From Salegentibacter tibetensis (GTDB lineage: Bacteria > Bacteroidota > Bacteroidia > Flavobacteriales > Flavobacteriaceae): a DNA stretch of 64,000 nucleotides. Below the pieces are notes generated by a model, which did no database searches, was not told the origin of the DNA, and saw only the letters and a program-made list of their open reading frames with translations. A program made the translations under genes and the position numbers. Below are positions 4,575 through 47,427 of this stretch, piece after piece (the stretch's first letter is position 1; each line of letters opens with the position of its first letter). The stretch is taken from NCBI RefSeq assembly GCF_020164485.1, contig NZ_JAIQZA010000001.1, forward strand, positions 1-64,000, read 5' to 3'.

Positions 4575-4698
4575 AATCAAGAACCTCGGGGCAAGCCCAC
4601 GAGGTATGAATTGGAAAACTATTTTATAATCTCGAGGCAAGCCCGCCTGAATGATTCGGGCAGGCCTCGGGGAATTAAACCCTCAATGAGGGATTAAA
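4575..4698 (+). repeat. Three-hairpin dispersed repeat, copy A
   Basis: About 122 bases that recur almost exactly in inverted orientation at 21797-21918, and in a diverged form at 47318-47427. Three stems follow each other: CCTCG/CGAGG near the start, a larger GC-rich stem around GCCTG/CAGGC in the middle, and CCCTC/GAGGG at the end. The copy ends 20 bases before the ATG of the isoaspartyl peptidase, so it would form the 5' untranslated region of that gene if transcribed from cphAB. Confidence 0.9.
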
Positions 4699-4717
4699 AA
4701 ACAATAAAAATCTGGAT

Positions 4718-5632
4718 ATGAATAATATTTCAATAGCTGTCCAAGGAGGAGCCGGAGAGGATTCTGAATTTATCAAATCGCATCAGTCGGGTTATAAAAA
4801 AGGCTTGGAAGACGCTGTTAATACAGGATATAAAATCTTAAAAGGAGGAGGCAGTGCACTGGATGCTGTTGAAAATGCAGTTCGATCCTTAGAAGATAAT
4901 CCACTTTTTAATTCAGGCCGTGGTTCAGCGCTTAATAACAAAGGGGAAGTTGAAATGGATGCTTCCATTATGGATGGCAAAAAAAATAATGCTGGTGCAG
5001 TTTCTATGGTTCGAAATGTCAAAAACCCCGTTACACTAGCTCGGTTTATTATGGAAAATACTTCGCACGTTTTTTTATCCGGGGCGGGTGCTCTTGAAAT
5101 TGCAAAAGAAGAAGATTTGGCCCTTGAAGGGGATTCTTATTTTATCACGGAACATCAGGTAGAGGAATTCATTAAAGACAGGAAGCAGGATGATTACAAT
5201 GCTATTCTGAAAAAACGCATTCACGGAACAGTGGGTGCAGTTGCTTTGGATAAAGCAGGGAATCTAGCAGCTGCGACATCAACAGGCGGCACTCCCAATT
5301 GTTTGGACGGTCGTATTGGTGATAGCTGTGTGATTGGAGCGGGATGTTATGCTAATAATTCTTCCTGCGCCGTATCCGGAACCGGGGATGGGGAATTACT
5401 TATCATTAATGTTATAGCCTACAGCATTGCCTTTTATATGGAATTAAAAAATTGCAGTTTACAGGATGCCTGTGATTATGTGATTCATCAGCGAAATATG
5501 GATGTTGAAGGTGATATAGGGGTAATTGCTGTAGATACCAGGGGAAACCTTGGGGTATGTTTTAACAGCGAACGCATGCACAGGGCCTGGAAAAATAATG
5601 AGGAAAAAATTACAGTGAAAATTTATAAATAA
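4718..5632 (+). CDS. iaaA: Isoaspartyl peptidase / L-asparaginase (Ntn hydrolase)
   Basis: Plant-type asparaginase family (T2), which self-cleaves to expose a catalytic threonine and hydrolyses beta-aspartyl dipeptides. The cleavage site is visible in HGTVGAVALD, with the Thr near residue 171, followed by STGGTPNCLDGRIGDS. The length of 304 residues is typical. Lying 330 bases after cphB on the same strand, it is the expected enzyme to split the beta-Asp-Arg released by cyanophycinase into Asp and Arg. That role is inferred from context; the family also accepts other isoaspartyl peptides. The symbol iaaA is used for the family. Confidence 0.9.
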   Translation: MNNISIAVQGGAGEDSEFIKSHQSGYKKGLEDAVNTGYKILKGGGSALDAVENAVRSLEDNPLFNSGRGSALNNKGEVEMDASIMDGKKNNAGAVSMVRNVKNPVTLARFIMENTSHVFLSGAGALEIAKEEDLALEGDSYFITEHQVEEFIKDRKQDDYNAILKKRIHGTVGAVALDKAGNLAAATSTGGTPNCLDGRIGDSCVIGAGCYANNSSCAVSGTGDGELLIINVIAYSIAFYMELKNCSLQDACDYVIHQRNMDVEGDIGVIAVDTRGNLGVCFNSERMHRAWKNNEEKITVKIYK

Positions 5633-6086
5633 TAGTTTTTGATCATCGAAAGCATCTTTTCTCTGTTCTCATTGGGATCTCTAAAAAACTAAATAAAAAC
5701 AAGCTCCACACATTGAAAAAGACAATTGTTAGGCTTCAGTAAGACGACATAGGAAACTTTACTTTTTAGGAGTTTCCGTAGTAATGCTCATTATAGGTTA
5801 CCTGATTGTAAATAAAAAGAATGCAACAATATGAAAATGATATAGTTCGATTCCAATCAAACAAGAGCAAGTAAAAATATGGTTTAAAGGAAATTTGATG
5901 AATTTGGTTATAGAAATCATTCCAGAAATTTATTTAAGATACTGTAATACAATAAATTATAGTTAAATAATTTTACTCACTGTTAGATTTTCGTAATTTC
6001 AAGAAGCCTTAAATTGACTGCAAAGTTTATTAGATAATAAACAATAACCTACTGGTAATTACTAATTTAATTTATAACTAAAACAG
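5633..6086. other. Intergenic stretch, no supported gene
   Basis: Between iaaA and the alcohol dehydrogenase. A short open stretch near 5755-5831 could encode a membrane-like peptide (FLGVSVVMLIIGYLIVNKK), but it has no start codon in frame after the preceding stop. I treat it as chance or a remnant. The rest is AT-rich and featureless. Confidence 0.35.
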
Positions 6087-6095
6087 AAAGGAGGA
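6087..6095 (+). promoter_or_regulatory. Strong Shine-Dalgarno site AAAGGAGGA
   Basis: A near-perfect AGGAGG lies about six bases before the ATG at 6101. Genes elsewhere in this window lack such sites, as is usual in Flavobacteriia. It fixes the start of the alcohol dehydrogenase and hints that the gene came from a lineage that uses SD-led initiation. Confidence 0.8.
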
Positions 6096-6100
6096 CCATT

Positions 6101-7258
6101 ATGTTAGCAATGAACTTTCGCGGAGCTTTTAAGGTACGTGCAGATTACGATATGCCATACCCTGAGATTGAACATCCGGGCGATGCAATAGTTAGAGTTT
6201 TGAGATCGTGTATATGTGGGTCTGACCTGCACCTGTATCACGGTTTGGTGCCCGATACCCGGGTAGGAATGACTTTTGGCCACGAATTCGTGGGAGAAAT
6301 TGTGGATATAGGATCCGATGTAAAGAATGTAAAAACAGGGGATAAGGTAATCGTTCCCTTTAATATTTCCTGTGGTAAATGTGTTTTTTGCAAGCAGGAA
6401 CTGTATGGAAACTGTCACGAAGCAAATCCGCAGGCTACAGCTGTGGGTGGAATATTTGGGTATTCTCATACCGCGGGTGGTTATAATGGAGGCCAGGCAG
6501 AATATGTGAGAGTTCCCTATGCCGATGTGGGGCCCACAGTGATCCCAGAGTGGATGGATTTGGATGACGCCGTATTATTAACAGACATTGTTCCTACAGG
6601 TTACCAGGCTGCTGAAATGGGGGGAATCCAGAAAGGAGATACCGTTGTTGTGTTTGGTGCCGGACCAATTGGTATAATGGCTGCGAAATGCGCCTGGCTA
6701 TTTGGAGCAGGAAGAGTAATAGTTATAGATGAATTGGAATATCGACTTGAATTTGTGAAAAAATACGCCCAATGTGAAGTCTACAATTTTAAATCGCTTG
6801 AGGATCCCGTGGTGTTCATTAAGAAAACTACCGATTCTCTTGGGGCAGATGTTTGTATTGATGCTGTAGGTGCTGAAGCGGCAGGAGATGCCATGAACAC
6901 CCTGCTGGGCAGAAAATTATTGCTCCAGGGGGGATCTACCACTGCTCTTCATTGGGCTATAAATTCAGTAAAAAAGGGAGGCATAGTTTCAATTGTAGGC
7001 ATTTATGGCCCCACAGCATGTCTTGTACCTATGGGAAATGTAGTCAATAAGGGAATTACAATTCGTGCAAACCAGGCAGCAGTAAAAAGATTATTACCCA
7101 GGTTGATTGAGCACGTTAAGAACGGTGTAATTGATCCGAAACAACTTATAACGCACCGTATTCCTCTTGAGGAGGTGGCAGAAGGCTACCATATTTTCTC
7201 TACCAAACTTGATAATTGTATTAAGCCGGTATTAATACCACCCACGGCTAACTCTTAA
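6101..7258 (+). CDS. Zinc-dependent alcohol dehydrogenase (MDR family)
   Basis: Medium-chain NAD(P)-dependent dehydrogenase of 385 residues. Catalytic-zinc residues are visible at C39 (CGSD) and in GHE at 60-62. The structural-zinc lobe has Cys 91, 94, 97 and 105. The nucleotide-binding GAGPIG motif is near residue 186. The sequence resembles the threonine/formaldehyde dehydrogenase-like branch, but I cannot name the substrate. The strong SD site fixes the start. The gene is followed 34 bases later by a conserved small protein and may be co-transcribed with it. Confidence 0.85.
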   Translation: MLAMNFRGAFKVRADYDMPYPEIEHPGDAIVRVLRSCICGSDLHLYHGLVPDTRVGMTFGHEFVGEIVDIGSDVKNVKTGDKVIVPFNISCGKCVFCKQELYGNCHEANPQATAVGGIFGYSHTAGGYNGGQAEYVRVPYADVGPTVIPEWMDLDDAVLLTDIVPTGYQAAEMGGIQKGDTVVVFGAGPIGIMAAKCAWLFGAGRVIVIDELEYRLEFVKKYAQCEVYNFKSLEDPVVFIKKTTDSLGADVCIDAVGAEAAGDAMNTLLGRKLLLQGGSTTALHWAINSVKKGGIVSIVGIYGPTACLVPMGNVVNKGITIRANQAAVKRLLPRLIEHVKNGVIDPKQLITHRIPLEEVAEGYHIFSTKLDNCIKPVLIPPTANS

Positions 7259-7292
7259 TAAATTGCTTACATAACCTTATAAATAATACATT

Positions 7293-7829
7293 ATGGAATC
7301 GGACGAAAATAAATCTAAAGATTTTAAAAACATCAGGGGAGGTGACCATAGCCATATTAAAGGCTGGGGAATAGATGCAGATTCAAAAAATGATCCCACC
7401 TACCCAATCAAGAAAAGAACAGATGAAGAGCATGAAGGCTATGAATGGGAAAGGCCCACACAACAAAAGGTTGATGTAGAAATTTTAAAATCTATTGAGA
7501 GGCCTAATATAACTGCTGTATTTGGCACTTCTGTACCTCCATCGGGCTTAAGTGGTGCAATACGCAGGAAGGCATTTGAAAAAGGCGAAGGTAGTTACGG
7601 TCGTTGGCTTCCCTTAATTCTTGCAGATAGAATTGGAGTTTATGAAGGTATTATTGACGATTTAAAGAAGGGAATTATGCCTAATACCTTTGCCGAAAGA
7701 GGATGGGGTGCGGAATGGAAATATAACCGAAAGAATTTTTTAATTAAAACTGCAGTAGGAGCCTTGGTAGTTGCGGGGTCTGTAGCCATATTAATTTCTT
7801 CAAACCGGGAGAAGTCGTATAGCAAATAA
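7293..7829 (+). CDS. Conserved protein of unknown function with C-terminal membrane segment
   Basis: 178 residues. The body carries recognisable conserved strings (GWGIDADSKNDPTYP, FGTSVPPSGLSGAIRR, AERGWGAEWKYNRK) that I have seen in an unnamed family often found with stress or dehydrogenase genes. Residues about 152-168 form one hydrophobic segment, so the protein is probably anchored by its C-terminus with the hydrophilic body in the cytoplasm. Function unknown. It lies 34 bases after the alcohol dehydrogenase. Confidence 0.75.
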   Translation: MESDENKSKDFKNIRGGDHSHIKGWGIDADSKNDPTYPIKKRTDEEHEGYEWERPTQQKVDVEILKSIERPNITAVFGTSVPPSGLSGAIRRKAFEKGEGSYGRWLPLILADRIGVYEGIIDDLKKGIMPNTFAERGWGAEWKYNRKNFLIKTAVGALVVAGSVAILISSNREKSYSK

Positions 7830-8111
7830 TTTCATACTTACTAGACAATTATTTATAATTACCTTAAACCCCCAGGTTTTAAATAAACTTGAGGCCAATC
7901 TAAATGTGTAAATACTTTATCCGGTTCCACTAACTACCAAATCAATATTTTGGGCATTGAAATGGGTGGTTTTATTAATGAAATGCTGTCCAATAAAATC
8001 CGCAGGAATGAACCTACAGACGTCATCTAACAAAATTAAACACGGGGCACAGCAAAAAAACTGACTGCCTTAAAAAAAATTGTTTCAATTCTAAGCTGAA
8101 CTAAATAAAAT

Positions 8112-8567
8112 ATGATGCATCTTGGTAAAATACTTATTTCTGCAATTGTCGGAACTTCTGCTATGACGCTGTTCAGTTATTTGATATCCAACAAAAAAAA
8201 TAGAAACTTCCGTGAGCCCCAAGTACTGGGTCAACTTATAAAACGTTTACCAAAAAGTGGCTCAAAGAAGTCCGCCCAAATAGCAGGATGGGGATTGCAT
8301 TACGCTATTGGAACTTTATTTGTGGTTTGTTATAGTGAATTATGGCAGCAAACAAAGGTAAAACCATCTCTGACTTCCGGTACGCTGCTGGGCGCTGGAA
8401 GCGGACTTATAGGTATTGGGGGATGGAAGCTTATGTTTGAAGCTCATCCCAATCCACCGGCAAAAAATCTCAAACCATATTTTGGTCATCTCATCCTTGC
8501 CCATATTGTATTTGGGATTTTCTGCGCCATCACTTATAAAATAACAGATGGGAATAAAAGGGCTTGA
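8112..8567 (+). CDS. Small multi-pass membrane protein, function unknown
   Basis: 151 residues with about four hydrophobic segments (near 5-24, 58-78, 92-108 and 124-144). Loops contain GWGLHYAIGT and FEAHPNPPAKN. It resembles small uncharacterised membrane proteins of Bacteroidetes; I do not recognise a function. Two ATG codons stand in tandem at 8112 and 8115. It is followed directly by the decayed DUF72 gene. Confidence 0.65.
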   Translation: MMHLGKILISAIVGTSAMTLFSYLISNKKNRNFREPQVLGQLIKRLPKSGSKKSAQIAGWGLHYAIGTLFVVCYSELWQQTKVKPSLTSGTLLGAGSGLIGIGGWKLMFEAHPNPPAKNLKPYFGHLILAHIVFGIFCAITYKITDGNKRA

Positions 8568-8597
8568 TTGTGAATACTGTTCCTGGTTTCCAGCATC

Positions 8598-9175
8598 ATT
8601 TTATTCAGGTCTTAGCGGCTTACAGTGCCTATTCCGAAATACTTATTTCCGCCTCCGTATGAAAATACGAGTAGGTGGAACTATCAAGCAACTTTATTTA
8701 GTAGCATAGAATTCAATAGTTCGTTTTACAAAATTCCACGATCGGCAACAGTTTCTAAATGGGCTAAATCAATGCCAGACCATTTTAATTATGGAAAGGA
8801 ATTACACACAATAAAGGTTTAAATTTTAATATTGAGGATGTTGTTACCTTTTTTAATTCTATCAATGCTGTCAATGAAAAGAAAGGATGCATGCTCATTC
8901 AGTTCCCTCCCAGTATAGGTAAGGAATACACCATTCAATTAGAAAAACTTTTAAGCAATATCAAAGAAGCAGATACTACACAAGACTGGAAAGTTGCTGT
9001 TAAGTTTCGGAATACATTATATTATTGTGACGATGTTTATGACCTGTTGAATTTTTACAAAGCGCAATGGTTACACAAGCATACCAGAGTCGGCAACACC
9101 TTTAGATATTTTTACGATGGCCGCAAAGGTGTGACGGGCTAAATGGGTAGTAAGATTCTTTTTAATGTTACAAAC
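8598..9175 (+). pseudogene. DUF72 (YecE-like) gene, frameshifted and truncated
   Basis: Pieces of a DUF72 TIM-barrel protein appear in order in different frames: FYSGLSGLQ (from 8598), then KYLFPPPYENTSRWNYQATLFSSIEFNSSFYKIP (given here only as position 8634-8745), then GLNFNIEDVV and MLIQFPPSIG, then VAVKFRNTLYY, then IPESATP. At least three frame changes are needed (about 8628, 8818 and 9085). The C-terminal third after the SATP motif is absent. No single frame is long enough to be functional, so this is a decayed gene. Confidence 0.85.
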
Positions 9176-9392
9176 GTCCGCTATTTCCTTTAAATAAGAA
9201 TTGGTTTTACTTGGAAGTACCTTAACGTTAGAAAGCTTACCTAATTACTTATTAAGGATTTTCCAGGCCATCATTTTCAAACTGAGAATATTTTTTTCTT
9301 ATTTGCTTTATTTTCAGTAATTTAAGTAGACAAAAGCTATACTTCTAGAATTTAGCTGATGAAAAATTAATTAACCACTTAAATCTTTAATT

Positions 9393-9824
9393 ATGAAAAA
9401 TTTTAAAATTGTATTCCCGCTGATTGCTTTGTTTTTTTGCTTCAATATTCTTTCAGCTCAGGAGATGACAGCTGAGAAACATGAAAATCTTAAATGGTAC
9501 ACCATTACTTATTTTGATTTCCACGATGGTAAGATAGATGAGGCAATGAAATTAGTCAATGAATATTTTAAACCCACGGATCAGGATCTTGGTGAAGATG
9601 TAATGGATTTTGAGCTACTTTATAATGAATGGGACCATATGGTAATCTTTCCCATGAAGGAAGGACTTGAAGTTTTTGAATGGAAAACAAGTCCACACGA
9701 AATTGAATGGATGAAAGCTCTAGAAAAACATGCTGGCAGTAAGGAAAAAGTAAAAGAAATTATGGAAGAGTGGGAATCTTATGTCAAGAAATCTAAAAGT
9801 CACCTTGCAAGAACTAAATCATAG
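9393..9824 (+). CDS. Small secreted protein of unknown function
   Basis: 143 residues. An N-terminal signal peptide (hydrophobic from about residue 6 to 20, cleavage after ILSAQ) is followed by an acidic, helical domain rich in Trp, Glu and Lys. No cysteine follows the signal, so it is periplasmic or secreted rather than a lipoprotein. I do not recognise the family. It stands alone and is closed by a clear terminator at 9851. Confidence 0.75.
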   Translation: MKNFKIVFPLIALFFCFNILSAQEMTAEKHENLKWYTITYFDFHDGKIDEAMKLVNEYFKPTDQDLGEDVMDFELLYNEWDHMVIFPMKEGLEVFEWKTSPHEIEWMKALEKHAGSKEKVKEIMEEWESYVKKSKSHLARTKS

Positions 9825-9850
9825 ACTGTAATAATTTTTAACAAAAAAGA

Positions 9851-9886
9851 TAAGGGCACAGAACATTGTGCCTTTATTTTTATTTT
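9851..9886 (+). terminator. Rho-independent terminator after the secreted protein
   Basis: The stem AAGGGCACA/TGTGCCTTT, with a short loop, is followed by a T-rich run, 27 bases after the stop codon at 9824. Confidence 0.8.
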
Positions 9887-10850
9887 GTCATCTCCTCCTC
9901 TACTTCCATAATTTGGCCATACAAACTCTTCTGCAGAATCTTTCAATGCAAAGATAAAAGCGTTTAGGGCTCAGTTTAGAGGAGTTAAAAATGTAGAATT
10001 CTTTTTGTACAGATTAACTACAATTTTTGCATAAACACAACAATTGGGCTTAATCCTTGATCCTTGATCCGGCGTTCCCATAATTTCATGAGAAATTACC
10101 CCATAAAAAAGCCTCTCATTTCTGAAAGGCTTTTGCAACTTTGCGGTCTGGGAGACTCGAACTATTTGTAAAATCCTTATTTTAAAGGCCTTCCCGGAGG
10201 GTCTTTTTTCGCACTCACCGAATTCGGCACCTTTAATATATTTTAATGTTTGACTTTTAGTTTTGGTTAATCAACTCCTAAGGTCACTCATTTCTTTAAA
10301 TTTATAAAGTCTTAATGGCGCAAAGATTATTTTGCAAGGCTGGCTACAGTACTTCCGTCTGGCACAAATGAAAAAGAAACTCCAGCGAATTGTAATCTGG
10401 TAATGAATGCTTTATACCAAATACTTATTACTATTGACAAAGATTTATTCTTTTTTCTACGATTTTTTTCAGAAAAATAGCGTAAATTTAAGATAGAATT
10501 TATCCCCAAAATCTTTTATAGGAACTTTGTTGGGAAGATTACCTGCCCGATTAAATTGTTTCAATAAGAGCACTTTATAAAAATGTCCTAAGTCTACTGG
10601 AAGAATAGCCTGAACTAAAATTATCGATTTTTTTAGGGTTAGGAATTAGGAAACTTTTTACCGCCGACACTAAACTTTAAGAGATGGAATAGATTTGATG
10701 AGGTCAAACCTATCAGGTTTATACCGGAAACATCGCTTATCCTTATCTCAGGAAAGGCCCTACATGATGATAAGGTAAAACGAGAAAAATCACCCCTAAT
10801 TCTCTTTAAACATCTGCGAAGAAAATTTCAAATGTTAAAGTAATATTTTT
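9887..10850. other. Long gene-free stretch holding a tRNA fragment
   Basis: Nearly 1 kb without a credible gene. It contains the tRNA-Asp 3'-end copy at 10101-10163. A small minus-strand frame at 10327-10509 has no family features. A short hairpin (AAACCT/AGGTTT) lies near 10707. The stretch looks like decayed DNA at the boundary of the sigma-factor region. Confidence 0.5.
10101..10163 (-). repeat. Displaced copy of the tRNA-Asp 3' end and its terminator
   Basis: This segment repeats 14499-14561 in the same orientation: the AAAGCCT/AGGCTTT terminator hairpin, the spacer, and the acceptor plus T-arm part of tRNA-Asp. A two-base gap lies in the acceptor/T-arm junction, and similarity stops abruptly at GACTCGAACT. 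The tRNA 5' part is missing, so it is not a functional tRNA. The layout resembles the distal attachment site of an element that entered the tRNA 3' end. Confidence 0.85.
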
Positions 10851-10925
10851 TTGGAACGTTTAGGCTTCCTGAGTTGTCTATATAAATATACGGTGCATAC
10901 AATCTTTAAAAAATCTGTCTTAAAA

Positions 10926-11486
10926 GTGAAGATAATATCTATTTATTATAATGAACGATTGCTGATACGAAAGGCAGCGAGGAGGGACAGGAATGCACAA
11001 TATAAATTATATGAAAAATACGCTCCTAAAATGTTGGCAGTATGCAGGAGCTATGTGAAAGATCTGCAATTTGCGGAAGATGTTATGCAAAAAGGTTTTT
11101 TAAAGGCTTTTACGCGCATAGGAAGTTTTCTTGGACAAGGGAGTTTTGAAGCTTGGGTTAGACGGATTATGATACATGAATCCATAAACTTTCTTAAAAA
11201 AAAACACTGGTTGTTATACGATAGCAACGTTATGGAGCATGAGGATTTAAGCAGTTCCAATATAGCTTCAAAAAGCGACGTAGATTTTCTGCTTAAGTTG
11301 ATAGACCAGCTTCCCAATGGATTTAGGTTGGTGTTTATGCTCCATGCTATTGAAGGTTATACCCATAAAGAAATATCCAGGGTGCTGAACATCCCGGAAA
11401 ATACATCAAGATCAAAACTTTCTAAAGCACGTAAGATTCTTCAGGAAAAAGTTGAACTCATTAGAAAAAAAAATGAAGCGCTATGA
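10926..11486 (+). CDS. ECF-type RNA polymerase sigma factor
   Basis: Sigma-70 family extracytoplasmic-function factor. Region 2 is visible in AQYKLYEKYAPKMLAVCRSY and FAEDVMQKGFLKAF, and region 4 in LPNGFRLVFMLHAIEGYTHKEIS with a helix-turn-helix. There is no in-frame ATG. I chose the GTG at 10926; a TTG at 10851 and a TTG at 10959 are alternatives. An ATG at 10951, exactly where the family N-terminus MNERLLIRKA would be expected, is out of frame. The gene overlaps the next gene by 14 bases and heads a sigma/anti-sigma/outer-membrane unit. Confidence 0.8.
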   Translation: MKIISIYYNERLLIRKAARRDRNAQYKLYEKYAPKMLAVCRSYVKDLQFAEDVMQKGFLKAFTRIGSFLGQGSFEAWVRRIMIHESINFLKKKHWLLYDSNVMEHEDLSSSNIASKSDVDFLLKLIDQLPNGFRLVFMLHAIEGYTHKEISRVLNIPENTSRSKLSKARKILQEKVELIRKKNEAL

Positions 11487-12156
11487 TATTGAATTATTCG
11501 TCAAGTCCACTCTGAGAGAGTATACTTTAACACCAAAAAGAAATGCCTGGCTGCAACTTTTGGATAAACTTCAGGAACAGGAGCAGAAGAGGGATCAAAA
11601 GATCTTTTTTAGGAAGGCTGTCCTCCTTATAACTGTTTTTCTGGCTGGATTTGGTACTGTAAGAAATAAAAGCATTCAGCATTTGGATATTTCCCTGGTA
11701 GAGAACAGCGGAACTATTATACCTACAGCTGATACTGAAGTTGAAAAAGGCAAAATAGTTTCCTTGGTAACCAGCAATAATGCGCCAACCTACAAGAATG
11801 AACAGGTAATTGTGCAGGAAAAAATACCTCAGCGCGATGTACTTTCAAATGAGGTAAGGAGTGCAGGATTAGATGAAGTTTTGACAGCTAACAAGAGAGC
11901 TCCTGAGGATCTCAACTTAAGCCCCGGGATAGAGGTTACTGATGCCGAAATTGAATCTTTAATGCGAGAAGCTCGTAAAAATATAGATATAAAAAGAATC
12001 TTATTAGAACAACAGGAAATATTACTGGCACGGGAGTTTCTGGTAGATGCAATAGATATCGAAGAAGAAAGAGAACCTAAGAGAAATAACACGGAGGTGG
12101 CTTTCAATAGCCTTTTAAGGGACTTTTTGAAGATCAAATCTGCATTTGCAAACTGA
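11473..12156 (+). CDS. Probable anti-sigma factor (single-pass membrane protein)
   Basis: 228 residues from the ATG at 11473, which lies inside the sigma gene and gives MKRYDIELFVKSTLREY. A short cytoplasmic N-terminal part of about 45 residues is followed by one membrane segment (AVLLITVFLAGFGTV) and a long periplasmic, charged, helical region ending in a coiled-coil-like stretch. The arrangement (small N-domain, one membrane helix, overlap with an ECF sigma gene) is typical of anti-sigma factors. I do not see a clear zinc-binding ZAS motif, so the role rests on context. Confidence 0.65.
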   Translation: MKRYDIELFVKSTLREYTLTPKRNAWLQLLDKLQEQEQKRDQKIFFRKAVLLITVFLAGFGTVRNKSIQHLDISLVENSGTIIPTADTEVEKGKIVSLVTSNNAPTYKNEQVIVQEKIPQRDVLSNEVRSAGLDEVLTANKRAPEDLNLSPGIEVTDAEIESLMREARKNIDIKRILLEQQEILLAREFLVDAIDIEEEREPKRNNTEVAFNSLLRDFLKIKSAFAN

Positions 12157-12242
12157 AGGTTATAGATTGATATATGCGCTCCCATAAGGTCCAGTGCCAG
12201 AGGCAACAATAATCTTTATTATACATGTAGAACGGTAAAAAA

Positions 12243-14500: not shown

Positions 14501-14532
14501 AAAAAAAAGCCTCTCATTTCTGAAAGGCTTTT
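14501..14532 (-). terminator. Terminator of tRNA-Asp
   Basis: On the minus strand the stem AAAAGCCT/AGGCTTTT is followed by a run of T residues, just after the tRNA-Asp 3' end. The same hairpin is duplicated at 10103-10134. Confidence 0.8.
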
Positions 14533-14541
14533 GCAACTTTG

Positions 14542-14615
14542 CGGTCTGGACGAGACTCGAACTCGCGACCCCCTGCGTGACAGGCAGGTATTCTAACCAA
14601 CTGAACTACCAGACC
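14542..14615 (-). tRNA. tRNA-Asp (GTC)
   Basis: Minus-strand cloverleaf of 74 bases. The acceptor stem GGTCTGG pairs with CCAGACC, the D-loop contains AGTTGGTTA, the anticodon loop CTGTCAC carries GTC, and the T-loop is TTCGAGT. CCA is not encoded. A partial copy of its 3' end lies 4.4 kb away at 10101. Confidence 0.97.
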
Positions 14616-21796: not shown

Positions 21797-21918
21797 TTAT
21801 CCCTCATTGAGGGTTTAATCCCCCGAGGCCTGCCCGAATCATTCAGGCGGGCTTGGCTCGAAATTATAAAATAGTTTTCCAATTCATACCTCGTGGGCTT
21901 GCCCCGAGGTTCTTGATT
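21797..21918 (-). repeat. Three-hairpin dispersed repeat, copy B (inverted)
   Basis: Reverse complement of copy A at 4575-4698 with only about four differences over 122 bases. All three stems are kept. It lies about 40 bases upstream of the rpsP promoter, in the gap between the PA2169-like gene and rpsP. Confidence 0.9.
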
Positions 21919-39054: not shown

Positions 39055-39097
39055 TGCCCCCGGATGCTATCTCTTAGAGATTCGCCGGGGCTTTTTA
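39055..39097 (+). terminator. Terminator after the porin-like gene
   Basis: The stem GCCCCCGG/CCGGGGC followed by T5 lies just after the stop at 39043. Confidence 0.88.
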
Positions 39098-39173
39098 TTT
39101 CCTGTTTTCAGCAATTTTTTAGTTCAAATTACGATTGCTTACACTTATAATAATGCTCCATAATTCAATCAGG

Positions 39174-39752: not shown

Positions 39753-39756
39753 AAGT

Positions 39757-41031
39757 GTGAAAAAACTAAAAATACTATCAGTAGAAGATGCGGTTGCCAA
39801 AGTAAAATCTGGTGACCGTGTTTTTATTCAGGGTGCTGCAATGACCCCGGTGACACTAATTGATGCCTTATGTGATCGTTATAATGAATTATCTGAGGTA
39901 GAAATTATTCAAATTCATACCGAAGGAAAAGCAAAATACACCGAAGAGCCGTACGCAAGCGCCTTTAGTATAAACACATGTTTTGTAGCCGGTAATGTTA
40001 GAAATGCAGTTAACTCAAATAAGGGTACCTATATTCCAATATTTTTAAGTGAAATACATAACCTTTTCCGCAGGGATATTTTGCCTTTAGATGTAGTTTT
40101 TATACAGGTTTCCCCACCCGACAAACATGGGTATTGCTCCCTTGGAGTTTCAATAGACATTACCTTACCGGCTATTCAAAAAGCAAATAAAGTAATTGCC
40201 CAGATAAATCCCCAGGTGCCGAGAACACACGGTGACGGGATAATTCATAGCAGCCAGATTGATGCGGCCATAGAGGTAGATGAGCCCATTTTTGCTTCCA
40301 CAATTACAACACCTACCGAGATTGAACAGTAAATTGGAAAACACGTAGCCGAATTAATTGAAGATGGCGCTACTTTGCAAATGGGTATCGGCGGTATTCC
40401 CAACGTGGTTTTACACAACTTGAAAAACCACAAAAACCTGGGTATCCATACTGAAATGTTTTCTGACGGAATTTTGCCACTGGTTAAATCTGGAGTGATA
40501 ACCGGAGCAAATAAAGAGATAAAAACCGGTAAACTGGTTACCTGTTTTGCTATAGGCTCACCTGAATTGTACGATTTTATAGACGATAATCCCAGCGTTC
40601 ATTTTAAAGAAGCCGCTTATACCAATGATACTGCCATAATTAGGAAAAACCCTAAAGTAACGGCTATAAATTCAGCAATAGAAATTGATCTTACCGGCCA
40701 GGTTTGCGCCGATACTATTGGAAAATTTCAATTTTCGGGAGTTGGTGGGCAAATGGATTTTATAAGAGGTGCAGCCCTTTCTGAAGGCGGCAAACCAATT
40801 ATTGCAATGCCTTCTATCACTAAAAACGGAATTTCCAAAATTGTACCTTTTTTAAAAGAAGGCGCCGGTGTAACCACTACCAGGGCCCACGTACACTATA
40901 TCGCTACAGAATACGGAGTAGTGAACCTGTATGGAAAAAACCTTAAACAAAGAGCAAAAGAACTTATTTCTATATCACATCCCGATCACCGGGAACAATT
41001 GGAAATAGATTCATTTAGTCATTTCAGATAA
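39757..41031 (+). pseudogene. Acetyl-CoA hydrolase/CoA-transferase with one in-frame TAA
   Basis: Starting at GTG 39757, one frame encodes a complete family protein of about 424 codons, except for TAA at 40330-40332. The part before it ends TTPTEIEQ and the part after resumes in the same frame as IGKHVAELIEDGATLQMGIGGIPN. The codon is one base away from AAA (Lys). The active-site Glu is in NSAIEIDLTGQV, and GGQMDFIRGA follows. Without readthrough, an N-terminal half (191 residues) and perhaps a second half from a start near 40375 would be made, neither expected to be active. Confidence 0.9.
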
Positions 41032-41049
41032 AGATATTTACTTTGTTTT

Positions 41050-41090
41050 TAAAGCCTGAAGAAACTTATTTTTCTTCAGGCTTTTTTTTT
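41050..41090 (+). terminator. Terminator after the CoA-transferase pseudogene
   Basis: The long stem AAAGCCTGAAGAA/TTCTTCAGGCTTT is followed by more than eight T residues. Confidence 0.93.
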
Positions 41091-41163
41091 GCATTTATGA
41101 TTTTGCTCATAAAAATACCGTAACCTGAACGCTAATTTTACTTCAGAATTAAAAACTAAAATC

Positions 41164-41445
41164 ATGAAACTTTACAAGACTTTACTGGCAGATTTTGAAG
41201 AGATGAGTTTGGGATACTCAGCAATTGGGATTATCGCTTCCAGTTGTTTGGGATCTGTAGCCGCGATGCTAATTTTAATGAACGGGCATACCTTTGTTGA
41301 AATGTTTCAACTGTTTATTGTAGTTGTGGTCTGTATGGGGTTTAATACGGTAATTTTGGCTCAGTTTAAACCAAAAATTGTATTTAATGCACTCTTGTTA
41401 AGCCTTGCCATTTCCTCTATCTTTATTCTTATAAATATTTTCTAA
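41164..41445 (+). CDS. Small membrane protein of unknown function
   Basis: 93 residues with three hydrophobic segments (about 20-38, 43-65 and 73-92) and the starting string MKLYKTLLADFEEMSLGYSAIG. No known motif is seen. It lies nine bases before the truncated haemoglobin, so the two are probably co-transcribed. Confidence 0.7.
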   Translation: MKLYKTLLADFEEMSLGYSAIGIIASSCLGSVAAMLILMNGHTFVEMFQLFIVVVVCMGFNTVILAQFKPKIVFNALLLSLAISSIFILINIF

Positions 41446-41454
41446 AGCCTTTTT

Positions 41455-41847
41455 ATGAAAAATGATATTAAAACCCGGGAAGATGTTTTTTTACTGGTTT
41501 CCGGATTTTATAAAAAAGTAAGGCAAAACCCTGAAATTGGTCATTTTTTTAATGGGGTTATAAAAGACTGGGATGCTCATTTTGAGAAATTAACCGATTT
41601 CTGGGAGAGCAACCTCTTTTTTAAAGCAACCTATAAGGGTAATCCTCAAAAGGTTCACGTAAAAGTAGATCAGGAAAATAACCAGGAGGTTTCCTCATAT
41701 CACTTTGGGATCTGGCTGAATTTATGGTTTGAAACCATAGACGATTTATATGAAGGCGAGATGGCAAATCGGGCTAAAAATAACGCTCGTAAAATGTCTT
41801 CGCATCTATATTTGAAGATCTTCCAGGCCCGCGAAAACCACCAATAA
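41455..41847 (+). CDS. Group III truncated haemoglobin
   Basis: 130 residues of the 2-on-2 globin fold. The proximal haem ligand is His83 in SSYHFGIWLNLWF. Features of group III are FYKKVRQNPEIGHFF and HFEKLTDFWESNLFF. Such globins bind oxygen or nitric oxide, and their physiological role is not settled. The context of a small membrane protein, carbonic anhydrase and a redox-type regulator suggests oxygen or NO stress; this is inference. Confidence 0.9.
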   Translation: MKNDIKTREDVFLLVSGFYKKVRQNPEIGHFFNGVIKDWDAHFEKLTDFWESNLFFKATYKGNPQKVHVKVDQENNQEVSSYHFGIWLNLWFETIDDLYEGEMANRAKNNARKMSSHLYLKIFQARENHQ

Positions 41848-41903
41848 AAAAACATCGAAAAAGTCTTCTTTAACAATACTCGATTTAACTATCATCGAAT
41901 TAT

Positions 41904-41927
41904 ATCCTGAAACAAGTTCAGGATGAC
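41904..41927. repeat. GTCA-type palindromic repeat, copy 2
   Basis: The stem ATCCTGAA/TTCAGGAT with loop ACAAG is followed by GAC. It shares its core with the copy at 35833, with compensating stem bases (GCT/AGC against TCC/GGA). Confidence 0.65.
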
Positions 41928-41970
41928 GATAATACTACTTTTCTGAATTCAATCTTAAAAAACTGAACAT

Positions 41971-42006
41971 AAAAAAAGCCCTAAAGGCCTTAGCTTTTAG
42001 GGCTTT
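41971..42006 (-). terminator. Terminator of the carbonic anhydrase gene
   Basis: The stem AAAGCCCTAAA/TTTAGGGCTTT has a T-run on both strands, so it may serve the convergent globin and carbonic anhydrase genes alike. Confidence 0.88.
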
Positions 42007-42025
42007 CTCAAATATTAAATTCTAG

Positions 42026-42592
42026 TTATAGAAAATCTACTTTTCCGGAATCTAAATTGTAATAAGCAGATACAATTTTCACTTTTCCGCTATCGGCAGC
42101 TTCTTTAATAATAGTAGAGCGTGTCTTAAGCTCTTCAGCAGTTAGTTGTGCATTTTTCTTTACTACATCATTTACGGGAGCATCCTTGCCTGAAGCAGCG
42201 ATGGCCGGTGCAATATGAGAAACCAGGTGATTAAGATTGTAACCATTATCTCCTCCGCTCATGGCGGCAGTAACAGCACCACAGCTTTCGTGACCCATTA
42301 CTACAATAATTTCAGTACCCAAATGTGCTACCGCGTATTCCATACTGGCAATAGAAGAGCTATTTGCGATATTTCCGGCTACACGCACGGTAAATAATTC
42401 GCCCAGTCCTGCATCAAAAGCAAGTTCCGGTACTACGCGGCTATCGGCACAGCTTAAAACAATCGCGTAAGGCGATTGCCCTTTGGTTAATTCTTCTCTA
42501 CGAGATTTATCCTGTAATTTACCTTCTTTATTATCGGCAGTGAAACGCCCATTACCTTCTTTAAGTCTATTTAATACTTCGTCTTTAGTCAT
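42026..42592 (-). CDS. Beta-class carbonic anhydrase
   Basis: 188-residue zinc enzyme interconverting CO2 and bicarbonate. Zinc ligands are visible: C48 and the catalytic D50 in CADSRVVPE, and H101 and C104 in GHESCGAV. There is no signal peptide, so it is cytoplasmic. It is transcribed alone toward the globin gene from a likely promoter at 42661-42692. Confidence 0.93.
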   Translation of the reverse strand: MTKDEVLNRLKEGNGRFTADNKEGKLQDKSRREELTKGQSPYAIVLSCADSRVVPELAFDAGLGELFTVRVAGNIANSSSIASMEYAVAHLGTEIIVVMGHESCGAVTAAMSGGDNGYNLNHLVSHIAPAIAASGKDAPVNDVVKKNAQLTAEELKTRSTIIKEAADSGKVKIVSAYYNLDSGKVDFL

Positions 42593-42660
42593 AATTCCCT
42601 ATTTAAATTTATTATTTTTCTTCTGAAAAAAAAGTCGGAAAGGACTTTTACATCGAACTA

Positions 42661-42692
42661 TAAACATAGGGATTTCTACCATATTTAGCAAA
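42661..42692 (-). promoter_or_regulatory. Probable promoter of the carbonic anhydrase gene
   Basis: On the minus strand TATGTTTA (7 of 8 to TAnnTTTG) lies 20 bases after a TTTG box, about 70 bases upstream of the ATG. Confidence 0.45.
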
Positions 42693-42756
42693 AATGTGAT
42701 CGTTTAAAGCTGTGATTTTAATAGGTTAGCAAAAACTTTAACCAAATTTTACGAGT

Positions 42757-43500
42757 TTACCCATGCAGAATAAGCACCGGGAGTCTTTGCTGTTTGGTTT
42801 TGGCAGCCGAGAGCCTGTTGAGAAGTTTTTCGGTAATATGAAGTTGACGGGCAAAAAACACAATAAGATTGGCGTTAGCATTTGCATCTGGCCAGAATTT
42901 TTCTAAAAAATCTGATTCTTTTTTGAGGGTTTGCCGGCAGAGTTTATAATTAGGCAACCTGAAATCTTCAATTTTTGTACCCGAATTATTTAAATCAAAT
43001 TCCCAAACATCCAAAGTTACATCTTCTGTAACCGGCAACTTCTGTAACAATTGTAAAGCTTCTGTATGAACCGGAAATCGCAAATCTAAAGGAAGGTATA
43101 ATTTTCTCCATTGTTTAAAATCGCAATTTGGCACTACCAAAACGGGACATTTTACTTTTTTTGCCACATTACAGGTATTGCCACCTAAACCCTGGAAGTT
43201 GGAAGTGTTTTTTCCTGAAGCCCCCATTACAATAAGGTCTATCTTTTTTTCAACAACAGTTTTTCGGGTGGCATTTATTAGATTATCGGTAAAAGGAAGA
43301 GCTGAAAAAGTATGATTTTTCGCAGCAAGTTCTTTCTGAAGTCTAGCTACCAGTTTTAAAAGCGCTTCCTTCATTAGTGCCATTTCAGCCGTTGAAGCAT
43401 GAAGAACATAAAATTTAGAAGACCCCGAAGTTAAATTCAGGGCATACCTCGCGGCATTATAAGCCTGAGCAGAAAAATCTGTAAGTATTAAAACATTCAT
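42757..43500 (-). CDS. Universal stress protein family protein
   Basis: 247 residues. The N-terminal half is a clear UspA fold (MNVLILTDFSAQAYNAARYAL, then IDLIVMGASGKNTSNFQGLGG, then CPVLVVPN). The second half is a diverged repeat of about 110 residues without the ATP-binding glycines. It is likely involved in stress or low-energy states. It lies 84 bases downstream of the response-regulator gene on the same strand, with its own promoter-like site between. Confidence 0.85.
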   Translation of the reverse strand: MNVLILTDFSAQAYNAARYALNLTSGSSKFYVLHASTAEMALMKEALLKLVARLQKELAAKNHTFSALPFTDNLINATRKTVVEKKIDLIVMGASGKNTSNFQGLGGNTCNVAKKVKCPVLVVPNCDFKQWRKLYLPLDLRFPVHTEALQLLQKLPVTEDVTLDVWEFDLNNSGTKIEDFRLPNYKLCRQTLKKESDFLEKFWPDANANANLIVFFARQLHITEKLLNRLSAAKTKQQRLPVLILHG

Positions 43501-43529
43501 GGGCTTGAAATTTCAGCACTAATTTTGGC

Positions 43530-43557
43530 CAAAAATAGCGTGAAAGATCAATCACAA
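43530..43557 (-). promoter_or_regulatory. Promoter and possible operator of the universal stress protein gene
   Basis: On the minus strand TATTTTTG (43530-43537) matches TAnnTTTG exactly. Just upstream lies the dyad GTGAAAGATCAATCAC (43540-43555), whose GTGA/TCAC arms resemble CRP/FNR half sites but with an 8-base centre instead of 6. The neighbouring gene encodes a CRP-type regulator, so it could be its target. Confidence 0.45.
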
Positions 43558-43584
43558 ATATGATTCCCGTCAGGTCTTTAAAAA

Positions 43585-44616
43585 TTAACTGATACGCTCC
43601 AGTTTTTCGGCGTCTAAAAGCTTTACATTTCTGCCTTCAATCTCTATAAGCCCTTCTTTCTTAAAATCGGAAAGAGTTCTTATTAGCGTTTCTGAAGCTA
43701 TACCGGCAACTCCGGCAAGATCGGCGCGGGAAATCCTAATGCTATGTAGAGGATTTTTCTTTATTTTATGCGCAAAAAGTAGAATGGTACGAGCGGTTTT
43801 TCTTCTTACCGACGCATAAGCGATTTCAATAAGCTGCTCTTTCACTCCCATTAAATGATCGCCCATTTCCTGCAGCAATTCCATACTAATATTGCTATTA
43901 TTTTTCAGGATTTCGCGTAAATCGTCTTTAGAAACCACGTAAAGTACACTATCTTCTAATGCCGTGGCATACTCCCCGTATGCTGTGTTTTTATTAAAGC
44001 TAAGATTTCCGAAGAAATCACCTTCTTTGTATAATTCAGTAATCATTTCTTTGCCGCGACTATCAAATTTATGAGCTTTTACCACCCCGCGTTCTACCAT
44101 ATAAAAATGCAGTGAAGATTTTCCTTCTTCATAAATATTTTCCCCGGCTTTAAAACTCATTTGCTCCCGGCTTCTCATCATTTCGCGAAAAGCCGTTAGA
44201 TTCTGAACAGCCTCCGCCCCATTATTATTATTCTGTGCCTGTAAAATTTCTACTTTTGCCAACCTGCTTTCAATAGCGCTTAAAAGATCTTCTTCTTCAA
44301 AAGGCTTGGTTAAATAATCGTCGGCGCCAAGATCCATTCCCCTTCTCACATCTTTGTGCTCGGTTTTTGCCGAAAGAAAAATAAAAGGAATTCCTTTAGT
44401 TTCTGGATCTTCCGATAGTCTGCTAAGCACATCATAGCCATCAAGCTCAGGCATCATAATATCGCAAACAATTATATCGGGTAGTTCTTCTTTGGCTTTA
44501 TCTACTCCCTTTTTTCCGTCGGGTGCGGTTACTACTTCATAATTTGAGAGTTCCAACAATTCTGCAGTATTCTCTCTAACGGTCACATCGTCTTCAATTA
44601 AAAGTATTTTTTTCAT
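43585..44616 (-). CDS. Response regulator fused to a CRP/FNR-type regulator
   Basis: 343 residues with three parts. A receiver domain (1-120) has phosphoacceptor D52 in CDIMMPELDG and the conserved K in TKPF. A cyclic-nucleotide-binding-like barrel (about 150-260) follows with GDFFGNLSFN. A winged helix-turn-helix (about 293-322, ADLAGVAGIASETLIRTLSDFKKEGLIE) completes it. The barrel lacks an obvious arginine/serine cAMP phosphate cassette, so it may not bind cAMP. The kinase gene lies 37 bases upstream, so the pair is a two-component system. Confidence 0.93.
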   Translation of the reverse strand: MKKILLIEDDVTVRENTAELLELSNYEVVTAPDGKKGVDKAKEELPDIIVCDIMMPELDGYDVLSRLSEDPETKGIPFIFLSAKTEHKDVRRGMDLGADDYLTKPFEEEDLLSAIESRLAKVEILQAQNNNNGAEAVQNLTAFREMMRSREQMSFKAGENIYEEGKSSLHFYMVERGVVKAHKFDSRGKEMITELYKEGDFFGNLSFNKNTAYGEYATALEDSVLYVVSKDDLREILKNNSNISMELLQEMGDHLMGVKEQLIEIAYASVRRKTARTILLFAHKIKKNPLHSIRISRADLAGVAGIASETLIRTLSDFKKEGLIEIEGRNVKLLDAEKLERIS

Positions 44617-44653
44617 AAGGTATTTTCAATTTCCCCAAAAGTAGACCTGGTGG

Positions 44654-45886
44654 TCATCTATTTTGGTTAGGTAATGTTACGGTAAATTTAGTGCCTTTAT
44701 TTTCTACGCTTTCAAAAAATATAGTGCCTCCCATATTTTCCACATGCACTTTAACTATATTAAGCCCGATGCCGGTTCCCTGATTTAGCAAGGCATTTTC
44801 GGCCCTAAAATAACGTTCAAAAATATGTTTTTGATCTTTCTGCGGAATTCCCATTCCTTCATCTTCCACTTCAAAAACAACCTGCTTATCCTTCGGAAAT
44901 ATTCGAAAAAATATCGTGGAATCTTCTGGTGAGTATTTAATGGAGTTTCCAATTAAATTTGAAAGAATGAGCTCCAATATCTTTTCATCCTGATACAGGG
45001 TTACATCTTCCATCTCATTGTCATATTCAATCTCCTGCCCATATTTTAAAGTCACATTTGCGTTGTAGATCACTTCGTTAACCAGCTTATTGAGACTAAA
45101 AGCAGTGTATTTGTAATTTACATTTCCAGATTCCAATCTTTCCAACGAAAGGAAATCGTTAAGGATATTATTCAAATAATGCACCTTATTTTTTATGGTT
45201 GTAAGATGTTTTGTTCTTTTTTCCTGCTGTTCGGTTTTGGTATATTTTTCAGCTAAAATAGCCGAAGTAAGGATTCCGCTTAGCGGAGTTTTAAATTCGT
45301 GGGAAACAAGGGAGAGAAATTTTGTTTTTAACTCATTGAGTTCCTTTTCCTGTTTTAGTGCGAGTTTAATGCGCTTTTCAGCTTCCTTTCTCTTTGTGAT
45401 TTCTTTTTCTAAGTCATTAACAGTTTTTCTAAGTTCCCGGGTTCGTATTTTGATCTTATCTTCCAGCTCAGCATTGAGCTCTCGAATACGCCGCTGATTT
45501 TCTTTTCTAACGGTAATATCTACTATCAAAGACATTACAAAACGCTCCCCATCTACCTTAAACGGGTTTAAACCTGCCTCTACCGGAAATTGCGTTCCAT
45601 TCTTTTTTACACCAAACAAATCCCTGCCGTGGCCCATTTGTCTTTTTTCACTATGCTCCATAAACCTATCAAAATGTTCATGGTGATTGGCTTTGTACCG
45701 CATTGGGATAAGAATATTTAAATGCGCCCCCAAAAGCTCTTCTTTTTCATAGCCAAACATAGCTAATGCAGCCTTATTCCCAGTGACGATTATTTGCTCA
45801 CTATCTACTACGATAACGCCTTCTGAAGCCGCCTCGAATAAGGTATCAAATATTTGTTCGTTCTCTCTAAAAAATTCTAAAGCCAC
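44654..45886 (-). CDS. PAS-domain sensor histidine kinase
   Basis: 410 residues and no membrane segment. A PAS domain (about 10-125), a coiled linker (about 125-185), a HisKA domain with H196 in SHEFKTP, and a HATPase domain (N-box LIGNSIKYS, G-box GMGIPQKDQ, GTGIGLNIV) follow. The PAS domain might bind haem, a flavin or another cofactor; the sequence alone does not show which. It is the first gene of the operon with the receiver-CRP protein. Confidence 0.92.
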   Translation of the reverse strand: MALEFFRENEQIFDTLFEAASEGVIVVDSEQIIVTGNKAALAMFGYEKEELLGAHLNILIPMRYKANHHEHFDRFMEHSEKRQMGHGRDLFGVKKNGTQFPVEAGLNPFKVDGERFVMSLIVDITVRKENQRRIRELNAELEDKIKIRTRELRKTVNDLEKEITKRKEAEKRIKLALKQEKELNELKTKFLSLVSHEFKTPLSGILTSAILAEKYTKTEQQEKRTKHLTTIKNKVHYLNNILNDFLSLERLESGNVNYKYTAFSLNKLVNEVIYNANVTLKYGQEIEYDNEMEDVTLYQDEKILELILSNLIGNSIKYSPEDSTIFFRIFPKDKQVVFEVEDEGMGIPQKDQKHIFERYFRAENALLNQGTGIGLNIVKVHVENMGGTIFFESVENKGTKFTVTLPNQNR

Positions 45887-46069
45887 AATTTATTGGTTAG
45901 GTTTTATGGAAACTAAATTACGAAGTGTTGAACGAATTAATAAGAAAAGAAGATTTTAATTTTCTTTTCTAAATAAGAGGAAAGTCAATGTGATTTTTAT
46001 TATCCAGTTAAAATCTAAGGCTTAGCGATTTAAAACTTTCAGCTTTTTTCGCTAATATCCCTTAGTTAT

Positions 46070-46077
46070 TATCTTTG
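46070..46077 (+). promoter_or_regulatory. Promoter -7 element before the DUF481-type gene
   Basis: TATCTTTG fits TAnnTTTG exactly. The transcript would begin near 46084, which rules out the upstream TTG at 46080 and supports the ATG at 46095. Confidence 0.6.
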
Positions 46078-46094
46078 TCTTGCAAATAGCTGAA

Positions 46095-46853
46095 ATGTTT
46101 CAAAAATTTCTTTTTTTATTCTTATTCTTTCCTGTTCTTGGACAGGCACAATTGGTGAATATTGAAACTAAACGCCTTCAAACCGATTCTACCCGATTTG
46201 TATTAGATGCCGATTTTGCTTTTAACCACTCAAACAACGACGGACTAACGGTAAATCAGTTAAACGGGACCCTAACCACCCAATTAAAATCTAAGGATTT
46301 CAAAAAGACCTATCTCTTTTTAGGAAATTACCGATTAATCGATGCAGATGAGGGAAATTTGCAAAATTCCTGGTTCCTCCATACACGCTTTAATTATAAA
46401 TTCAACACACAGTTAAGCTTTGAAGCCTTTTTGCAGGGTCAATACAACCAACTTTTGGTGGTGGAGCAAAGAAACCTTGTAGGTGCTGGGTTACGAATGA
46501 ATTGGGTAGACCGGGAAAATTTCACGGGTTACCTGGGAAACAGCTATATGTATGAAGTAGAATATAGTGATAGAGCCGGTACTACTGATTACAATCACCG
46601 CAATAGCACTTATTTTTCTGTATCCTATCTTTCAAAATCGAAAAAGTTTTCTATAACCAATACCGTTTATTATCAGCCTCTTTATAAAAACCTGAAAGAT
46701 TACAGGATCCTGGAACAATTTCGCCTGGACATTCCCCTCGCGGCATGGTTTAAAGTCTTTATGATTTACGATTATTATTTTGACAGTAAGACTCCTTTAA
46801 ACACCAGGGAATATACATCGCAGTTACAGGTTGGGATAGGATTTAGTTTTTAA
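46095..46853 (+). CDS. DUF481-type outer-membrane protein
   Basis: 252 residues from the ATG at 46095. The signal peptide MFQKFLFLFLFFPVLGQAQ is followed by an amphipathic beta-rich sequence (LTTQLKSKDFKKTYLFLGNYRLI, VGAGLRMNWV) ending in QLQVGIGFSF with a terminal Phe. This pattern fits DUF481-like outer-membrane barrels; the function is unknown. It is transcribed alone. Confidence 0.75.
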   Translation: MFQKFLFLFLFFPVLGQAQLVNIETKRLQTDSTRFVLDADFAFNHSNNDGLTVNQLNGTLTTQLKSKDFKKTYLFLGNYRLIDADEGNLQNSWFLHTRFNYKFNTQLSFEAFLQGQYNQLLVVEQRNLVGAGLRMNWVDRENFTGYLGNSYMYEVEYSDRAGTTDYNHRNSTYFSVSYLSKSKKFSITNTVYYQPLYKNLKDYRILEQFRLDIPLAAWFKVFMIYDYYFDSKTPLNTREYTSQLQVGIGFSF

Positions 46854-46914
46854 AGATTGCCACGAGTGACAAGTATTTATTTATATAACTTCCTGCCTGA
46901 AAAACCATCCTAAA

Positions 46915-46972
46915 AACAAAAAACCGAACTGTTTTCACAATCCGGTTAATTCTATTGGCCTACTAGGGCTCC
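46915..46972 (-). repeat. Displaced copy of the tRNA-Gln 3' end and terminator
   Basis: TTGGCCTACTAGGGCTC (46955-46971) equals the acceptor and T-arm part of the tRNA-Gln at 47061. It is preceded by a diverged version of the same terminator hairpin (AACCG/CGGTT, 46922-46947). After the shared block the sequence is unrelated. The distance to the intact tRNA is only about 104 bases. Confidence 0.8.
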
Positions 46973-47020
46973 CTCGACAGCGCCTCCAGGCTTCTCGCCG
47001 TAAAAACTTCCGTATAATAA

Positions 47021-47050
47021 AAAAACCGAATTCTTTTCAGAATTCGGTTT
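47021..47050 (-). terminator. Terminator of tRNA-Gln
   Basis: On the minus strand AAACCGAATT/AATTCGGTTT is followed by a T-run just after the tRNA 3' end. Confidence 0.85.
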
Positions 47051-47060
47051 CACATTTTAG

Positions 47061-47133
47061 TTGGCCTACTAGGGCTCGAACCTAGACTCTTCTGGACCAA
47101 AACCAGACGTGTTGCCAGTTACACCATAGGCCA
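47061..47133 (-). tRNA. tRNA-Gln (TTG)
   Basis: Minus-strand cloverleaf of 73 bases. The acceptor stem TGGCCTA pairs with TAGGCCA. The anticodon loop TTTTGGT carries TTG between TCTGG and CCAGA. The T-loop contains TTCGAGC. CCA is not encoded. Confidence 0.95.
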
Positions 47134-47317
47134 TTGCTGTAATGCGGATGCAAATTTAAAACAAACTTTCTATTGCGCAAACTTTTTCTGTAAAAAATAA
47201 AACCAATTTTTCCTGAAGCCTATTTTCGCCGAAATATCTATTAAAATTAGAGTCCTGAAACAGCTTTATTTTCAGTCTTATCAGAAAATATTCTGTTTTA
47301 AAGTCCGTTACTGAACT

Positions 47318-47427
47318 ACCTCGGGCTAAGCCCCTAGAGGCATTAATGAAAAAATATCTTGACTTCAAGGCAAGCCCGCTTGAATGATTCGGGCAAGCCT
47401 CGAAGCATTTAAATCTCGATTATCGAG
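47318..47427 (+). repeat. Three-hairpin dispersed repeat, copy C (diverged)
   Basis: About 110 bases in the orientation of copy A. The middle block GCCCGCTTGAATGATTCGGG is almost the same. The stems are kept with changed bases: CCTC/GAGG first, GCTTG/CAAGC where copies A and B have GCCTG/CAGGC, and CTCGA/TCGAG where they have CCCTC/GAGGG. It ends about 53 bases before the DUF2723 gene. Confidence 0.8.

Follow-up and report, generated by a model that had tools for sequence, protein, structure and literature searches.

Three copies (A, B and C) of a hairpin-rich repeat lie in a 64,000-nucleotide (nt) stretch of Salegentibacter tibetensis DNA (assembly GCF_020164485.1, contig NZ_JAIQZA010000001.1, positions 1 to 64,000; hereafter the window), and they raise the question why the same three hairpins recur at separate places. 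In a first-pass annotation made from the sequence alone, the three copies were grouped as one family, and paired changes in their stems were ascribed to selection on folded RNA or single-stranded DNA. The family was borne out by sequence reading, alignment and folding. A and B form an inverted pair that is 96% complementary over 127 nt, and folding with DNA parameters was compared with shuffled sequences (z = -5.4 for A, -3.5 for B and -2.7 for C). A, B and C are almost certainly non-autonomous IS200/IS605-type elements, of the kind known as palindrome-associated transposable elements (PATEs).

Transposase-bearing relatives

In a Seonamhaeicola genome, the C-terminus of an open reading frame (ORF) adjoins hairpin 1 at three contig ends. 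This C-terminus was present in 14 of 299 genomes of the family, and the best cases were ORFs of about 150–165 amino acids (aa) with matching ends on both flanks. A Pfam scan with the 37-aa C-terminus alone gave no match. Complete proteins from the tnpA-bearing relatives (TnpA, about 150 aa) matched Pfam Y1_Tnp (E 2.7e-35 and 1.7e-34) and NCBIfam transpos_IS200 (124.6 bits, cut-off 55), and scored 28.4 with REP_Tyr_transpos, under its cut-off of 80. They were also aligned in their HUH and Tyr regions with structure 2xm3 (labelled TRANSPOSASE; E 2.3e-17), which we take to be ISDra2 TnpA. Judged from these matches, the ORF next to hairpin 1 is an IS200-type TnpA.

In a same-genus genome, an IS200-type element with an open, intact tnpA frame (L371) shares 20 of 21 bases of the right-end palindrome (IP-R) and 16 of 17 bases of the core of the left-end palindrome (IP-L) with the repeat. 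Because the ends of L371 match them, hairpin 2 is IP-L and hairpin 1 is IP-R when the repeat is read on the opposite strand; to these two, hairpin 3 (H3) adds another at the left tip.

For copies elsewhere in the 4.21-Mb genome, copy A was used as query and returned 47 rows (40 places and 7 side fragments); scoring covered 40 of 117 candidates, with the diverged C absent from them. A hairpin-1 25-mer with at most 3 mismatches was found 35 times in the same genome, again without C, and 0 times as reversed control. Matches were obtained in 18 of 60 genomes searched (own included), with all 14 other same-genus genomes among them, and an exact scan of named genomes matched at least 110 stretches. 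The 80 matches listed are mostly from Flavobacteriaceae (Salegentibacter, Maribacter, Gillisia, Aquimarina, Leeuwenhoekiella, Zunongwangia). The element is widespread in many marine Flavobacteriaceae, and the copies seen measure about 95–120 nt. The family largely behaves as the first-pass annotation predicted (many copies, paired substitutions, intergenic bias). Hairpin-1 matches were also seen in a metagenome-assembled genome labelled Verrucomicrobia and in eight viral contigs (L153, L160; L198–L205). In short forms (L028 and, in the own genome, C24:89926–90002), the left portion of hairpin 1 runs directly into the right portion of hairpin 2, as if these forms had arisen by repeat-mediated deletion.

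Guide sequences and cleavage sites

Each hairpin of IS608 has at its foot a tetranucleotide that pairs with the cleavage site (PMC5934647). The position rule applied here between guide (g) and cleavage site (c), namely g1:c2, g2:c1 and g4:c4, is our reading of the published IS608 sequences together with two stated pairs (PMC5934647). Right ends were compared in 136 distinct copies whose hairpin 1 is nearly intact, and 106 of them fit all three positions (2000 shuffles: mean 55, maximum 71); this set came partly from a pattern that fixes Y-A-T beside the hairpin, and the shuffles retain that composition. The right rule was also satisfied in nine of ten hand-picked tnpA-bearing copies. At the left end, 84 copies could be parsed, and g4 is the complement of host c4 in 79 of them (shuffles: mean 28, maximum 44), with the guide/target classes AATA/TTAT (27), AATG/TTAC (21) and AATT/TTAA (19); related sequences in both tests are not independent. 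Since empty sites identify the left site as host DNA, the left match reflects target choice. In most copies compared, guide tetranucleotides match cleavage sites at both ends, on the left at g4.

Empty and filled sites

Empty sites were searched with one joined-flank query per site, for nine sites in 15 genomes of the genus. The junction was readable on both sides for L010, B and C and on the left side for L024. At the empty site of L010, TTTAA passes directly into the right flank and nothing is duplicated; the left side of L024 agrees with this pattern. The junction at B agrees as well, save for one extra T, and it is matched without a break in 12 of the 14 other genomes of the genus. Site C is filled in six genomes (the own genome, G000, and G002, G004, G009, G012 and G005) and empty in four (G014, G010, G013 and G007). 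Insertion takes place 3' of a fixed target (TTAA), without target duplication.

L006 and L363 (G012:C5:346150–346700) occupy the same spot in two species with their copies in opposite orientation, and are apparently independent insertions. A classical miniature inverted-repeat transposable element (MITE), moved by a DDE transposase, was considered and rejected; tests for terminal inverted repeats and target duplication were negative.

Strand preference

The replicated strand was assigned from third-codon GC skew, with the leading strand taken as the G-rich one. For the own genome, one 20-kb sample per contig was used (the whole 16-kb contig for C135). For three complete genomes, 20 stretches of 20 kb were sampled from each, and the limits of the skew zones were drawn by eye with the copy positions already known. 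dnaA was tried as origin marker and discarded; it lay away from the skew minimum in all three complete genomes, and skew zones were used for that reason. In the own genome, 30 of 35 copies are oriented to the lagging-strand template (20 of 23 where skew exceeded 0.05), and 57 of 72 are so oriented in the complete genomes (G035 20/22, G011 20/24, G010 17/26). Among the window copies, A and C agree with this orientation and B disagrees (C lies outside the 35 and was read from the same contig skew). The element is biased to the lagging-strand template, a preference described for IS200/IS605 (PMC7290912, PMC6006769).

Observations at odds with a mobile element

Several results weigh against the identification as an IS200/IS605-type element. 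For a cognate tnpA in the own genome, a search with the C-terminus gave 0 matches (2 candidates scored), and one with the whole TnpA gave three weak matches (26–32% identity, best E 9.5e-5). Neither palindrome recurs, even approximately, at the nine Y1_Tnp loci of this genome, where the best matches still differ at 8 of 21 and 5 of 17 positions. At the right end, 30 of the 136 copies break the position rule, and 10 of 22 distinct site/guide combinations fit it fully. Parsing of the left ends relied on H3 forms listed by hand and left 44 of 128 copies unparsed; g4 is violated in 5 of the 84 parsed copies, and positions g1 and g2 are nearly invariant, hence uninformative. The T run at the B junction is one T longer than expected. 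In the six filled C sites, about 5 nt including TTAC are gone from the left flank; the host target TTTAC was apparently lost, so that C probably lacks its left cleavage site and is frozen. The strand bias of G010 alone is not significant (p 0.23), and a survey of Halanaerobium IS605 elements reports no strand preference (10/22; PMC7290912).

Stem changes and alternative explanations

That hairpin 1 does not vary in the alignment follows from the pattern chosen. For IP-L, 63 copies were aligned and 95.6% of 315 cells pair. A change on both sides from GC to CG was found in 13 of the 63 copies, and both-side-changed cells number 14 against 4.3 in shuffles. Two further measures are unexceptional: pairs changed on both sides number 2, a value reached in 29 of 500 shuffles, and further pair types number 3, which 499 of 500 shuffles reach. 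H3 occurs in several forms that are unrelated in sequence. At the H3 position of the tnpA-bearing copies, nine of ten have no hairpin; L237 has CTCTTAGGG, with three possible pairs.

At site C, only the own copy, which has the nested hairpin, folds better than shuffles (z -3.2, DNA parameters); in five other species the z values lie between -0.06 and -1.56, and the fold is at shuffle level with either DNA or RNA parameters. Folding as DNA predicts H3 at four of the six filled sites, and its arms are complementary in all six. The overall fold has decayed after insertion at this site, the one tested, a loss that points to selection on moving elements and not on copies that stay put.

Many copies carry a GC-rich hairpin (CCCGCCTGAAT..ATTCGGGCAGG) inside the loop of IP-L, or else between IP-L and H3 (window 4642–4664, 21829–21851 and 47375–47397; also L021, L024, L013 and L019). 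It appears to be a second mobile hairpin, one whose targets are palindromes. Of the six orthologous C sites that are filled, only that of the own genome has it.

Paired changes alone are no proof of selection, because replication template switching can make them too (PMC8794818). An origin of the paired stem changes in such quasipalindrome correction rather than in selection would be compatible with a mobile element and is, on balance, unlikely. Multi-base paired changes are possible in one step (PMC8794818), and H3 has changed in pairs even at site C, where the remainder decayed; yet IP-L pairing is kept over 63 copies, whereas the fixed copies at site C lose their fold.

A folded RNA element (leader, terminator or small RNA), duplicated upstream of genes and kept by selection on the RNA, is highly improbable. 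It would fit the complementary H3 arms in all six filled C sites and the finding that no ORF of at least 80 aa spans any of 30 own copies (loci from the own-genome search with A; crude ORF calls, at least 80 aa). It would also fit A and C, which finish 24 and 54 nt before start codons, as in the earlier statement that all three copies end just upstream of a gene; B turns its other end towards rpsP, with 117 nt to the ATG (22035). This placement is not a general rule: of the genes next to the hairpin-3 side of the 30 own copies, 17 are co-oriented, 12 are opposed and 1 is unassigned, and no gene-orientation bias was found among them. Furthermore, the repeat has no Rfam match at gathering score (the window holds only two tRNAs and an S16 leader), B is absent from most genomes of the genus, the site-C fold of five other species is at shuffle level also with RNA parameters, and guide/target matching and strand bias are left without a reason. 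The single-stranded DNA half of the earlier proposal is well supported, the hairpins being IS200/IS605 ends, and the RNA half is unsupported.

REP/REPIN sequences served by a RAYT (TnpA_REP) are scarcely credible. The copies are indeed palindromic, intergenic and of high copy number in a genome with nine Y1_Tnp matches, but near copies of the palindromes are missing from all nine loci, two of the own-genome Y1 transposase genes (L031, L032) are flanked by other, REP-like palindromes, the cognate protein scores as IS200 and below the REP_Tyr_transpos cut-off, and the element has two unlike hairpins, fixed polarity and guides that match cleavage sites at both ends.

Copies in the window

The limits of the copies were corrected to 4576–4693 (A), 21800–21917 (B) and about 47311–47426 (C). 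Copy A has its IS orientation on the minus strand, and its ends were placed from the empty sites of sister copies. The right cleavage site C_R (TGAT; 4576–4579, minus strand) forms the final 4 nt of the element. IP-R, the former hairpin 1, lies at 4584–4604 (minus strand; identical to the autonomous L371 at 20 of 21 bases), with the right guide G_R (CATA; 4605–4608, minus strand) directly beside it. IP-L, the former hairpin 2, spans 4632–4669 (minus strand), with its loop enlarged by the nested hairpin (4642–4664). The left guide G_L (AATT) is at 4673–4676 (minus strand), H3 (CCCTCAATGAGGG) at 4680–4692, one base inside the left tip, and the host target C_L (TTAA), outside the element, at 4694–4697 (minus strand). 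Copy A seems embedded in another dispersed repeat (about 4481–4574 and 4698–4720), and its joined flank gave several further matches in the own genome and in relatives.

Copy B, for which relatives show the empty site, is in plus orientation, with H3 at 21801–21813, IP-L at 21824–21861 (plus strand; nested hairpin 21829–21851) and IP-R at 21889–21909 (plus strand). An S16-Flavobacteria ribosomal leader (RF03138; 21996–22030) lies between B and rpsP. Copy C, of approximate limits, is on the minus strand and belongs to a subfamily with guide AATG; its IP-R is at 47319–47340 (minus strand), its IP-L at 47363–47405 (minus strand; nested hairpin 47375–47397) and its H3 (CTCGATTATCGAG) at 47415–47427.

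The paired stem changes reported between A/B and C are real as differences between subfamilies. They are not changes at one locus, because C is of another subfamily, and the pair GCCTG/CAGGC to GCTTG/CAAGC was placed in the nested hairpin within the hairpin 2 loop instead of the core.

Elsewhere in the window, an exact 47-nt direct repeat was found at 10105–10151 and 14503–14549; the second copy overlaps the end of a tRNA (14542–14615).

Discussion

The proposed movement of the element would start on the top strand, with IP-L and IP-R folding while the lagging-strand template is single-stranded. A TnpA (HUH/Y1) from a related IS200-type element would act in trans and bind IP-L and IP-R. The guides at the hairpin feet would pair with the cleavage sites, on the left host TTAA/TTAT/TTAC and on the right TGAT/TTAC/TTAT. 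Excision would release the element as single-stranded DNA, which would then be inserted on the 3' side of another target tetranucleotide with no duplication. Its stems would be kept because movement requires them, and a fixed copy would be free to decay. The sequence data themselves show the anatomy, the relatives, the empty sites, the match of guides and sites, the strand bias and an intact partner in the genus; we infer TnpA binding and cutting, a circle intermediate and the identity of the TnpA that moves or moved the copies in this genome. For H3, a role in shortening or shielding the linker from the left cleavage site to IP-L is suggested.

As described in PMC3119063, the PATEs of Haloquadratum walsbyi are alike in having no transposase, no terminal inverted repeats, no target duplication and a high copy number. 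They likewise have IS605-type-like palindromes near both ends, short forms from repeat-mediated deletion and small repeats nested in palindromes (PMC3119063). By comparison with that description, the present element is from Flavobacteriaceae, measures about 95–120 nt, has a third hairpin at the left tip and comes in several guide/target classes. With IS608 and ISDra2 (IS200/IS605) it shares subterminal IP-L and IP-R, guides 5' of the hairpin feet and insertion 3' of a short target (PMC5934647), as well as the lagging-template preference (PMC7290912, PMC6006769). Set against these elements as described there, it has no tnpA or tnpB, targets TTAA/TTAT/TTAC and carries the extra H3. The REPIN/RAYT system is alike in its Y1 enzyme family and in palindromes scattered in intergenic DNA (PMC6006769); compared with that account, the present element has no opposed REP pair, an IS200-class enzyme and no RAYT at the copies examined.

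Two MITE papers (PMC9769881, PMC10969869) had no IS200/IS605 content, and searches aimed at the flavobacterial family in openly licensed PMC literature turned up no description of it. The kind of element, the PATE type, is known already, and the flavobacterial family is a new, widespread member. More tentatively, and with doubt prevailing, the family may be a family-wide enzyme-less radiation that re-targeted itself naturally, with single guide letters exchanged (AATT, AATA, AATG) and landing sites altered accordingly (TTAA, TTAT, TTAC). In this reading the left-tip H3, unrelated in sequence between subfamilies and lacking in nearly all autonomous copies seen, would be a novel working component of the transposition machinery.

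The identification accounts for a hairpin repeat that is dispersed in marine Flavobacteriaceae. It also carries a warning, in that paired stem changes between dispersed repeats may mean transposon ends and not RNA function. The family offers a natural guide/target series, by which DNA-guided target choice in IS200/IS605 would be testable on evolved and not only on engineered variants.

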